Source: Rhodococcus spelaei
Lineage (GTDB): Bacteria > Actinomycetota > Actinomycetes > Mycobacteriales > Mycobacteriaceae
Length of the DNA: 64,000 nucleotides
Direction: 5' to 3'
Assembly (NCBI RefSeq): GCF_006704125.1
Contig: NZ_VIGH01000005.1
Location: 310,001-374,000, forward strand
This document shows, one piece after another, positions 22,837 through 54,100 of the stretch; position 1 is the stretch's first letter; every line of letters starts with the position of its first letter. The notes below the pieces were generated by a model, which was given only the letters and a program-made list of their open reading frames with translations, did not search any database and was not told the DNA's origin. The position numbers and the translations under genes were made by a program.

Positions 22837-24146
22837 GGCGGCTCGTGGTGGTCCAGTTGATCCTCTTCGCGCTGACGTCCGCGATCGTGATCCCGTTCGG
22901 GATCAACTACGTGCTCGGTCCGCAGGCGTTCGGGGACCCGATCCGCGTGCACTCCCAGATGGCGGATGCCCTGGGACTGACCGCGGGGACCAGCGTCACC
23001 TACCGCGGTGTGACCGTCGGCAAGGTGGCGAGCGTGTCGCTGGCACCCGACGTCGGCGGCGCCCGAGTGGATTTCGACCTCGACCCAGGGACCCGGATTC
23101 CCCGCGACAGCGTCGCGAGGGTCGGAATGGGGACGGCCGCGGGCATCCAGAACGTCGACATCTTCCCCAACACGGGGGAGGGGCCCTTCCTCGGGAACGG
23201 TGACGAGCTCGCCGCGCCGGCGGACAAGCAGCCCGTCCAGATGAGTCAGATGATGCTGCAGGCCTCCCGGCTGGTCGACGGCATCGACCCCACGGCGGTC
23301 AGCGACCTCGGCACCGAACTCGGTGCCTCGTTCGACGGCCTCGGCCCGGCGATAGCCGGCATCATCGACAACGGTGACACCCTGTCCGCGCAACTGTCCG
23401 CGCAGACGCCGATGCTGAAGTCGCTGCTGGACCGGACCGCGAGTCTGGTGTCAGCGATGGCGGGACAGTCGGATTCGTTCGTGCGTGGGACGTCCGCGGC
23501 GCGCAACTTCACCGAACAGCTCGACACCAGTGCGCCGGTGCTGGTGTACCTGGCGGACACCTCGCCGCAGGCTCTCGGCAATGCGCAGCAACTGTTCGAC
23601 CGCTATCACGACACCTTCGGCGCGCTGCTCGCGAACCTGGTCACCGTGGAGCCGATCATCTCCGATCGCACCGGGGCCCTGGCGTCGGGACTGACCGACA
23701 TCCCGAAGGGTCTCGGCAGGCTCGGGTCCATCGTGACCGGGGACCGCGCGAACTTCACCCTGGTGGCCACGCAGGGTCCGGTGTGCAACTACGACACCGT
23801 GAGGCGTGCGGTCGGCGACGTCAGCCCCGCCACGACATTCCCCGAGGCTTCGCCCGCGACCCAGCCGACATTCCCCGAGGCTTCGCCCGCGACCCCGCCG
23901 ACATTCCCCGAGGCTTCGCCCGCGACCCCGCCGAACCTGACCTACTACTGCCCACCGGGGAAGAACATCGCGCAGCGCGGTGCTCGAAACGCCCCGCGGC
24001 CCAATGACCTGGGGCTGCAGAATGCAACCACCCCGGGGACCGTCATCGGACCTCCGGTGGTGGACGACCCGATTCTCGTCCCGACCGGGGTCGAGGCACT
24101 GAACTACTGGAAGAAGCTCCTGGAGGATCTCGGACATGGCAAGTGA
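22833..24146 (+). CDS. mceF: Mce-family protein MceF, with an in-frame tandem repeat
   Basis: Sixth Mce subunit, 437 residues. It has an N-terminal anchor (LVVVQLILFALTSAIVIPFG, about 4-23), an MCE domain (about 36-120: LGLTAGTSVTYRGVTVGKVA) and a long helical tunnel region. Near the C-terminus, between two conserved cysteines (VCNYDT and TYYCPPG), are three exact or near-exact 11-residue units TFPEASPAT(Q/P)P encoded at 23835-23933. I read this as an insertion. GTG 22833 overlaps the mceE stop and the end overlaps mas by 11 nt. Apart from the repeat, the protein is ordinary for the family. Confidence 0.94.
   Translation: MRRLVVVQLILFALTSAIVIPFGINYVLGPQAFGDPIRVHSQMADALGLTAGTSVTYRGVTVGKVASVSLAPDVGGARVDFDLDPGTRIPRDSVARVGMGTAAGIQNVDIFPNTGEGPFLGNGDELAAPADKQPVQMSQMMLQASRLVDGIDPTAVSDLGTELGASFDGLGPAIAGIIDNGDTLSAQLSAQTPMLKSLLDRTASLVSAMAGQSDSFVRGTSAARNFTEQLDTSAPVLVYLADTSPQALGNAQQLFDRYHDTFGALLANLVTVEPIISDRTGALASGLTDIPKGLGRLGSIVTGDRANFTLVATQGPVCNYDTVRRAVGDVSPATTFPEASPATQPTFPEASPATPPTFPEASPATPPNLTYYCPPGKNIAQRGARNAPRPNDLGLQNATTPGTVIGPPVVDDPILVPTGVEALNYWKKLLEDLGHGK
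23835..23933 (-). repeat. Three tandem 33-bp units of a dispersed repeat, inside mceF
   Basis: The units occupy 23835-23867, 23868-23900 and 23901-23933. They are nearly identical; copy 1 differs by the Gln codon. Read on the minus strand, each contains GGGCGAAGCCTCGGGG followed by AATGTCG. This core recurs in the giant NRPS at 39031-39120 (19 of 21 bases for the best copy) and 52969-52991 (21 of 23 bases). The length of each unit is a multiple of three, so mceF stays in frame. Confidence 0.85.
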
Positions 24147-51100: not shown

Positions 51101-54100
51101 CGTGAGGAACTGGACCGAGTGCTCGCGCAAGACCTGGGCACCCAGTTCCGGATGATCGAGGCGCCACTGGTCCGCCTGCTGCTGGTGAAGACCGCGGAGC
51201 AGCGGTTCCGGCTGGTCGTCACGCACCACCACATCCTTCTCGACGGGTGGTCTTCACCACTGCTGATCCAGGACCTGCTGATCCTGTACATCACCGGTGG
51301 TGACGACTCGGCGATGCCGGTTGTCCGGTCCTACCGGGACTACCTCGAATGGCTCGTTTCCCAGGATCATGCTGCCTCGCTTGCTGATTGGGCTGCGGCG
51401 ATGAGGGGTGTCGAGGCTCCGACCTTGCTCGTGCCCGACGTGCAGTCGCACGATCCGGCGGTGCCGCAGGAGCTGCGGCTCACCCTGTCCGAGACAGACA
51501 CGGCTGCACTTGCCGGGGTCGCTCGCGACCACGACGTCACGCTGAACACGATCGTCCAGGCAGCGTGGGGCGTCGTGCTCGGCCAGGCGACCGCAACTGA
51601 GGACGTGGTCTTCGGTGCGACCGTGTCGGGTCGTCCGCCGCAGATCAACGGTATCGAGCAGATGATCGGTCTGTTCATCAACACGCTTCCGGTCCGTGTC
51701 ACTCTCGAACCGGCGGACACGATCGTCGACGTCCTCACCCGACTGCAGGCTCAGCAGGCCGAACTGCTCGATCACCAGTTCGTCGGGCTGACCGAGATCC
51801 AGTCGGCCACCGGCTTGTCCGCGCTCTTCGACACTCTCACTGTCTTCGAGTCCTATCCCTTCGACCAGGAGGGACTCAGCGACACCACTGAAACGGCGGG
51901 GCTGCGGGTGGTCGGTGTCGACGGCCTCGACTCGACGCACTACCCGCTCACGTTGATCGCGTCAGTGGGCCGCGAACTCCATATCGATCTGAAGTTCCAG
52001 GAGCAGCTGATCGGGAGTGCTGCGGTACGGACCCTCGTCAACCGTCTGCATCGCGTCCTCGACGCCGTTGTGGCCGATACCTCGACGCCCATCGCGCAGC
52101 TCGAACTGCTCGCGGCCGACGAACGCGCGCAGTTGCTCGCCGGCTGGACCGTCCCCGGCGTGGGAGTGCCGAATCGGACGCTCATCGACGTGTTCGGCGA
52201 GCGCGCGCACACACACGCCGACCGCACCGCGGTCGTCGCGGCGGGCGAGCGTCTGACCTACGCCGAGCTGTCGTCGCGGGTGAACCGCCTCGCTCGGGTG
52301 CTCGTCGCCGAGGGTGTCGGCCCCGAGTCGATGGTCGCGGTCGCGATGCCCCGGACCGTGGACCTGGTCGTCGCCCTGCTCGCCGTGCTGCAGGCCGGTG
52401 GTGCCTACGTGCCGGTGGACGTCACCTACCCGCAGGACCGCCTCGCGTACATGCTCGAGGACGCGGCTCCGGTGTGCGTGATCTCGACCGTCGTCGACGT
52501 GTCTGCGTTGCCGGACAACGACGTTCGACCGTTGCTGCTGGATTCGCCGGAGCTGGTGGCTCGGCTGTCCGAGGTGTCCGACGCGCCGCTCGCCGATGCC
52601 GACCGGGTCGCTCCGCTGTCCCCTGCGCACCCGGCGTACGTGATCTACACGTCGGGTTCGACCGGCCGGCCCAAGGGCGTCGTGGTCCCGCACTCGGACG
52701 TGCTCACCCTGATGGCGAACACCCAGCTCGAGTTCGGGTTCGACGAATCCGACGTGTGGACGATGTTCCACAGTTACGCCTTCGACTTCTCGGTGTGGGA
52801 GCTGTGGGGGCCGCTGCTGTTCGGCGGCAGCCTGGTGATCGTGGACTACCTGACCTCGCGCTCACCCGAGGACTTCCTCGAACTGCTGCGCGCCGAGAAG
52901 GTCACGGTGCTCAACCAGACTCCGTCGGCGTTCTACCAGCTCGCCGAGGCGGATCGGGTCCACTCCCCGGGCGAAGCCTCGGGCCATGTCGCAGGGGAGA
53001 GGTCTGTCTCCGGCACAGGGGAGAGCTCTGTCTTCGGACCGCTGAGCCTGCGGTATGTGATCTTCGGTGGCGAGGCGCTCGACCTGGGCCAGCTCGACCG
53101 CTGGTACGCGCGACACGACGAGACCGCTCCGCGGTTGGTGAACATGTACGGCATCACCGAGACAACCGTGCACGTCAGCTACCTGGCGCTCGATCGTGAG
53201 TTCGCGCGGGAGTCGAAGGCCAGCGTCATCGGCCGCGGTCTTCCCGGCATGGGCGTGTACGTGCTCGACTCCCGCCTGCAGCCGGCCCCGGTCGGCGTGA
53301 CCGGCGAGATGTACGTCCGCGGCGGCCAGTTGGCTCGTGGCTACCTGGGTCGGCCGGACCTGACGTCGGATCGGTTCGTGGCGGACCCGTTCGGTGCGGT
53401 CGGCGACCGGATGTACCGCTCGGGCGACCTGGCGCGCTGGAACGCGGACGGTCAGCTGGAGTACCTGGGGCGCAGTGACTTCCAGGTGCAGCTGCGCGGT
53501 TTCCGGATCGAACTCGGCGAGATCGAGTCGGCATTGCTGCGCTTCGAGGGTGTCGCGGCGTCCGCGGTGCTGGTGCATTCGGACGAGCGCACCGGCGACC
53601 GTCTCGTCGGTTACGTCGTGCCGGAACAGGGTGCGAGCCTCGATCCGGACGCGGTGCTGGCGCACGTCGGCGAGTTCCTTGCGTCCTACATGGTGCCGTC
53701 GACTCTGGTGGTGCTCGACGAGTTCCCGCTCACGGCGAACGGCAAGCTCGACCGCCGTGCCCTCCCGGCACCCGATTTCGCCTCGACTGCAACAGAATTC
53801 GTCGCACCGAGGAATCTGGTCGAGGAGGCCATCGCGGCGGTCTTCGTCGAGGTGCTCGGCATCGAGCGCATCGGCGTGCACGACAGCTTCTTCGCGCTCG
53901 GCGGCAACTCGCTCGTCGCGACCCGGGTGATCGCGCGGATCAACGCGGCGCTGGGCGTGCGCGTCGGCGTCCGGGAACTGTTCGAGGCCCCGACGGTCGC
54001 CGAACTCGCGCTGCGGGTCGAGCGGGCCGGCGACCCCGGTGCCGCCCGCCCCGAGCTCGTCGCGGGTGAGCGCCCGGCGCACGTTCCGCTCTCACTGGCC

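Follow-up and report, generated by a model that had tools for sequence, protein, structure and literature searches.

Short repeats that insert in frame into unrelated, often conserved protein-coding genes, and are tolerated there, are known as Rickettsia palindromic elements and their Wolbachia equivalents; they are 105-150 bp in length and have long stem-loops (PMC10969869, PMC2229807). The present analysis concerns a much shorter repeat, a unit of 30 bp, found in a 64,000-nt stretch of the Rhodococcus spelaei genome (contig NZ_VIGH01000005.1, positions 310,001 to 374,000; hereafter the window), where copies lie inside the gene mceF and inside two adenylation (A) domains of a nonribosomal peptide synthetase (NRPS). 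The hosts of the Rickettsia elements belong to a different phylum, and to our knowledge no mobiliser of those elements has been described. In-frame insertion in unrelated protein genes is found here too, but the present unit is 30 bp long, is no palindrome, carries only a 7-base mini-hairpin, forms arrays of whole units and joins its target at RCC^G. It works like a Rickettsia palindromic element but is not one, and in this sense the likeness drawn in the first-pass annotation of this DNA stands.

Small dispersed repeats (SDR) of cyanobacteria, compared here by description only, are alike in size and lie mostly between genes, whereas 58 of the 89 class 1 sites described below score as coding. 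They measure ~20 bp, occur in tandem in places and might be mobile (PMC2884548; also named in PMC3116915). Repetitive extragenic palindromic (REP) units, at 30 to 37 bp, are also of similar size, and hairpins in single-stranded DNA, clusters and spread within genomes are described for them (PMC3116915). REPs are extragenic imperfect palindromes that occur as inverted doublets and are linked to RAYT genes; unlike REP/REPIN, the present unit is mostly intragenic, runs head to tail without close inverted doublets, occurs in a genus with Y1 transposases in 0/6 genomes searched, and has no predicted fold beyond that of shuffled sequences. It also differs from a miniature inverted-repeat transposable element in the lack of a fixed target duplication.

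For the spread of these units we favour, with a probability of about 0.5, a copy-type process: judged from sequence comparison, units of 30 bp, in whole multiples, have been inserted in unrelated genes and spacers, likely by a template switch at RCC^G that would be aided by the hairpin, the added linker being tolerated by the host protein. The template switch itself is a step that we infer.

When the core GCGAAGCNNCGGGGAATGTCG was matched to both strands of the window with at most 3 mismatches, seven matches at three sites were obtained, as compared to a mean of 0.04 in shuffled sequence. Three are antisense in mceF (23833-23919), three are sense in A domain 4 (39036-39116) and one is sense in A domain 8 (52971-52991, 2 mismatches). 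The first-pass annotation had placed the repeat in these genes and had claimed that each insertion preserves the frame; both statements are borne out, since mceF and both A domain sites lie in the open reading frame of the host. By its own account, a core absent from the rest of the genome together with ancestral loops in all relatives would have refuted it, and this is not what was found. Genome-wide, the same search returns 25 places in the own genome, some of them chance, and the congeners are without the mceF and gltB inserts.

The copies had been described as one family, and they are indeed related via GCGNAGC, but they form two sister families that the proposed core mixes. The class 1 unit is GGGGCGAGCGNAGCGACGGGGRATGTCACC, 30 bp, and occupies A domain 4, while the class 2 unit is TCGGGCGNAGCCTCGGGnAATGT with a variable tail, also 30 bp, and occupies mceF and A domain 8; GCGNAGC is common to both. 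Within the family, 61 of 251 genomes and 14 of 31 genera have the class 1 pattern when 3 mismatches are allowed, at 0 to 25 copies per genome, and the reversed-pattern control gave 0, so that chance is rejected for class 1. Across the bacterial class 6 of 197 genomes carry it; the family accounts for 15 of these 197 and for all six carriers, and the other 182 have none. A sequence-only model of class 1 has matches in 6/6 genomes of the genus, with 10 sites in the own genome at E <=0.001; in the window it finds the three units of A domain 4 (E < 1e-9), while mceF and 63534-63549 give partial, weak matches, the latter on the minus strand at 10.8 bits and E 0.039, which may be chance. Among named genomes, carriers judged by eye from the flanks belong to Rhodococcus, Gordonia, Mycolicibacterium and Mycobacterium (8/23 stretches); calls judged by eye to be chance (the other 15/23 stretches, and six of the 25 core places of the own genome) were dropped from the site list. 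Class 2 is present in 14/121 genomes; the own genome has 25 places, counted as 15 sites, and the five congeners have between 2 and 11 places apiece. Its reversed pattern also matches, with 4 hits in 121 genomes, one of them in a congener, and scattered single class 2 matches, above all outside the genus, may therefore be chance.

An assembly artefact was rejected, as the units occur in many assemblies and many genes, and so was a purely local minisatellite, or variable-number tandem repeat, as 61 of the 89 class 1 sites are single copies and the unit is dispersed over 61/251 genomes. No exact match to the core was found in IMG/VR, and searches of plasmids and phages gave only weak or short matches; 14 loci compared with Rfam gave 0 matches at E <=0.1. 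In the open-access papers searched neither the letters of the unit nor its peptides were found, and the titles and abstracts returned by topic searches contained no such repeat in these bacteria.

Empty sites supply the most direct view of the insertions. In all five congeners, each of which was read, the match to the own MceF protein ends at residue 310-312 and resumes at 340-344, and the two match pieces in congener DNA adjoin or share a few bases; the gene of the own genome is longer by 96 bp, equal to 30+33+33. The first-pass annotation had given unit lengths of 33 and 30 bp; the unit is 30 bp. In gltB the own protein reads FVA[GASEATGDVA]GANASVTG, as compared to FVAAADASVTG and similar forms in the congeners, 5/5 of which are without the unit. 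TldD is likewise empty in 5/5 congeners; the difference from G004 is a gain of exactly 30 bp (own CTC ACC [30 bp] GGG, G004 CTG ACC GGA), and the loop length varies in the other four. A citE-like gene carries 7 x 30 bp at its C-terminus with GAC on either side of the array, and the CitE proteins of the five congeners end in RFDPESP or RFDPNSQ followed by a stop, without the array. A domain 4 reads PFS[30 aa]AGSRMYRTGD, and P(F/Y)GxxGxRMYRTGD stands at this place in seven further domains with the motif, a gain of ~90 bp as compared to the other A domains of the window. In other genera, PrpC and NuoL show a gain of exactly ten residues relative to the solved homologues 3hwk and 8e9g, respectively, and insertions relative to solved homologues are also seen in PurH and ValS of other genera. 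Pfam is consistent with the names of mceF (MlaD), TldD, GltB, PrpC, PurH, NuoL and ValS.

Further hosts are presumably HtpG, a biotin carboxylase, a MoxR-type ATPase and mutase subunit look-alikes, and in the own genome what we take to be HemW, a condensation domain and RimI look-alikes. Units stand at the C-terminus of a presumed RimI-like acetyltransferase both in the own genome (L295) and in G005 (L191), with different surrounding residues. Nine loci in congeners are NRPS A domains with units (L192, L195, L197, L198, L200, L205, L207, L215 and L217), placed ahead of RMYRTGD, of PELVNMYGITE, or of a third 12-residue motif or similar; NRPS loops look like insertion hot spots. At three loci (L026, L051 and L057) units occur at gene N-termini and add codons, and at two (L025 and L027) the ATG of GGGGRATGTC is a possible start codon. 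In the TldD of G005 (L161) a short, unusual loop, EASADG, contains GACGGGG and is perhaps a decayed unit.

The reading frames were examined over the 89 distinct class 1 sites, a site being called coding when its coding score was above 15. By this score 58 sites are coding and 31 non-coding or unclear. The coding sites comprise 45 in sense frame 0 (GASxATGNVT), 9 in frame 1 (GERSDGEC), 2 in the third sense frame and 2 antisense; other readings of the unit DNA include GRAKRRGMSP and, antisense, DIPRRFARP and TFPEASPAT, and copies also lie in spacers. The occurrence of units in each sense frame, on the antisense strand and between genes indicates that DNA is spreading and that the proteins have not converged. 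Array spacings are multiples of three in 38/38 coding gaps and 8/8 unclear ones, as compared to 23/31 non-coding gaps, where 26, 28, 29 and 31 also occur; 30 is the commonest spacing outside genes too. This strictness in coding arrays, relaxed in non-coding ones, means that frame selection acts after insertion. The arrays run head to tail, with 49 direct neighbour pairs within 60 bp, and opposite-strand neighbours were met twice, at 468 and 617 bp.

TldD and GltB were followed in a second genus, where 3/13 TldD genes carry a unit at the same position as in the own genome, and 2/13 GltB genes carry one apparently a few residues off the own site. In a protein tree of 19 genomes, from which the TldD part is missing for G003 and G152, the TldD carriers are four separate tips, two of which have empty sisters with supports of 0.998 and 0.999. 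Repeated insertion into one tolerant TldD loop bearing RCC^G is the parsimonious reading.

Conservation of the core was measured on 118 strings among the matches listed, with 3 mismatches allowed anywhere and repeated array neighbours typed once; the regular expression of the site scan fixes most of the core and hence was not used. Among these listed matches the 17 fixed core positions hold 20 mismatches in 2006 cells, as compared to 197/826 in the tail. The core is near-identical between genera, and the DNA identity includes synonymous positions. The free base of the core is A in 67, G in 31, C in 19 and T in 1, so that it is not A in 51/118, and it falls on the middle of the GNA loop of d(GCGNAGC). 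This mini-hairpin is described, in the part of the source available, as extraordinarily stable, with a GNA loop in which N is any base and at least two G-C pairs, and with a melting temperature (Tm) of 78 C for GCGAAGC (PMC4686876). The retention of GCGNAGC with a varying N in both classes fits the published rule; the description, in that part, covers isolated DNA and an aptamer tool, and a role in spreading repeats does not form part of it (PMC4686876). T is nearly absent at the loop base (1/118 among the matches listed) though the rule allows it.

The tails were compared over 106 copies from 27 genomes among the matches listed, with the own genome (G000) added and without genomes for which one copy was listed and G061 (two identical copies). 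The variable positions differ less between separate loci of one genome than between genomes, at 3.31 as compared to 3.74 of 9 (permutation p 0.001, with the kinship of genomes not modelled), as would be expected if copying occurs inside genomes. No terminal inverted repeats were seen by eye in an alignment of 60/85 distinct units.

The flanks of the 89 class 1 sites define a junction: the left side is RCC, the right side starts with G, and the unit itself ends in RCC. At the 21 non-coding sites the junction is preceded by C in 19 cases and followed by G in 13, each against a background of 0.33, so that RCC^G is not a product of codon usage. Where the gain is exactly 30 bp, the target supplies one RCC and the insert the other, and the phase of RCC^G at insertion is the junction phase inside arrays.

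A mechanism of the following kind could account for these features. A DNA strand ending in RCC would pair with the RCC ahead of a unit elsewhere and copy that unit, helped by the GCGNAGC mini-hairpin, and would then rejoin the target by way of the RCC at the end of that unit, so that RCC flanks the insert on either side and the target stays intact. Slippage might then lengthen the arrays. The ten added codons are usually free of stops and mostly read GASxATGNVT or SGxASGNVT; the host protein would accept them as a flexible linker, and selection would remove other outcomes and so produce the frame bias. Copying by template switching is favoured over cut-and-paste because of the lack of a Y1 transposase in the six genomes of the genus, the whole-unit gains, the RCC^G phase and the resemblance of copies within a genome. 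The first-pass annotation had proposed a mobile or gene-converting element; mobility agrees with the recurrence in the genome, the empty sites and the patchy presence in other genera, but gene conversion is not borne out. A bolder form of the reading, which we put forward only tentatively, is that the unit may be among the smallest mobile DNA so far observed: a selfish 30-bp unit spreading family-wide by hairpin-driven template switching, without a transposase of its own or in trans, and installing flexible ten-residue linkers in essential enzymes and NRPS A domain loops.

Several observations weigh against spread by template switching. The spread is deduced from comparisons between species, and the frame calls come from a crude codon-position score. 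The predicted single-strand DNA fold of the unit is no better than that of shuffles, though the tool may not reward a GNA loop, and the case for the hairpin therefore draws on the published rule and on which positions vary. The three bases to the left equal the last three of the unit in only 12/89 sites (6.3 expected from shuffling, p 0.013) and in 1/21 non-coding sites, so that both strict target duplication and strict microhomology are unsupported. The transposase search covered one family, Y1, in genomes of the genus. Loop length in TldD and GltB also differs from one empty genome to another, and not every gain is a clean 30 bp: relative to the commonest empty form, GltB of the second genus is longer by 11 residues. 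The place of G172 in the tree is poorly supported. The TldD units at one site could also go back to a single ancient insert, removed precisely on many occasions, or result from recombination between relatives.

A less likely but real rival is a non-autonomous transposable element of 27 bp, with a target duplication of ~3 bp, mobilised in trans by a transposase or a site-specific recombinase; the enzyme would recognise the GCGNAGC hairpin and join it at RCC^G. Such an enzyme would explain the near-invariant core with its free loop base (again among the matches listed), a site preference that holds outside genes, and the patchy presence across genera; GAC on either side of the CitE array, ACC-27 bp-ACC at TldD, and the excess of exact left/tail matches (12 as compared to 6.3) resemble its expected duplication. 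However, most sites lack an exact duplication, and the Y1 transposases (PF01797; REP/IS200-type, RAYT/IS200-IS605), the obvious candidates for such hairpin DNA, were found in 0/6 genomes of the genus, with controls positive in 5/14.

It is unlikely that the units are old ancestral linkers, lost exactly by most lineages or spread by homologous recombination of the host gene, with no insertion mechanism today. Sites that look orthologous in several genomes (L086, L090, L092 and, in the own genus, L218), all before YIVASNMQDGV, are what this would predict, as is a TldD unit whose position four lineages share. Against it stand the empty sisters beside two of the filled TldD tips, the absence of the mceF, gltB, TldD and CitE units of one genome from 5/5 congeners, and a core that is near-identical between genera with tails that resemble each other more inside a genome than across genomes. 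The gltB units are also apparently at different positions of the same loop in the two genera, a loop that is hard to align.

Slightly less likely still is a functional DNA site, bound by a protein or by a replication or repair enzyme, that was repeatedly gained and then kept by selection. A core that is near-invariant whatever the frame would suit such a site, but the copy number is low and very uneven, few positions are shared between species among those looked at, and most sites score as coding. Protein-level convergence, in which flexible Gly/Ala/Ser/Thr linkers are selected and similar codons arise by chance, is hardly credible: the commonest reading is a plausible linker in 45/58 coding sites, but the same DNA in other frames, antisense and in spacers, and its identity across genera at synonymous positions, refute it.

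It is uncommon for a protein to acquire an entire loop at once; here one DNA unit has added much the same linker to many proteins. Across species the hosts include glutamate synthase, TldD, methylcitrate synthase, PurH, NuoL, ValS, an HtpG-like protein and NRPS modules; sister species with an empty site are available for TldD and GltB. Two questions become testable: by what means such tiny repeats spread when no enzyme is apparent, and how an enzyme copes with, or makes use of, a loop that is added suddenly. The Rickettsia palindromic elements left both largely unanswered in hosts that are hard to manipulate, and Rhodococcus and Gordonia are easier to work with.

In the window, the host gene mceF (MlaD/Mce domain) runs from 22902 to 24146 on the plus strand, from the first residue used to the stop, with its start codon further upstream. 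The class 2 array of three 33-bp units lies at 23833..23934 on the minus strand, in the Cys-Cys stretch, and is read as TFPEASPAT(Q/P)P three times; its cores lie at contig positions 333835, 333868 and 333901, and Tandem Repeats Finder (TRF) reports 33 bp x 3.1 at 23833-23934. An AlphaFold model of MceF from 5 sequences had a mean predicted local distance difference test score (pLDDT) of 35.9, too poor to confirm the insert in a surface loop. The NRPS host open reading frame spans 25532..64000 on the plus strand, with 12823 codons in the window and open at its end, and carries the insertions of A domains 4 and 8. In A domain 4, ahead of RMYRTGD, the class 1 units lie on the plus strand at 39029..39058, 39059..39088 and 39089..39118 and read GASGATGNVA, EASGATGNVA and EASEATGNVA, respectively (TRF, 30 bp x 3.0 at 39027-39117). 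In A domain 8 a class 2 core lies at 52967..52989 on the plus strand (contig 362967-362989), after SAFYQLAEADRVH, and reads SPGEASGHV. Directly 3' of it, at 52992..53037 on the plus strand, is a 24-bp tandem pair (TRF, 24 bp x 1.9) read as GERSVSGTGESSVFG; it had been tied to the repeat but belongs to neither class, and may be a third unit type. Further short tandem repeats of the window lie at 6469-6511, 18230-18267 and 56951-57000, with periods of 21, 18 and 24 bp, respectively, all multiples of three.

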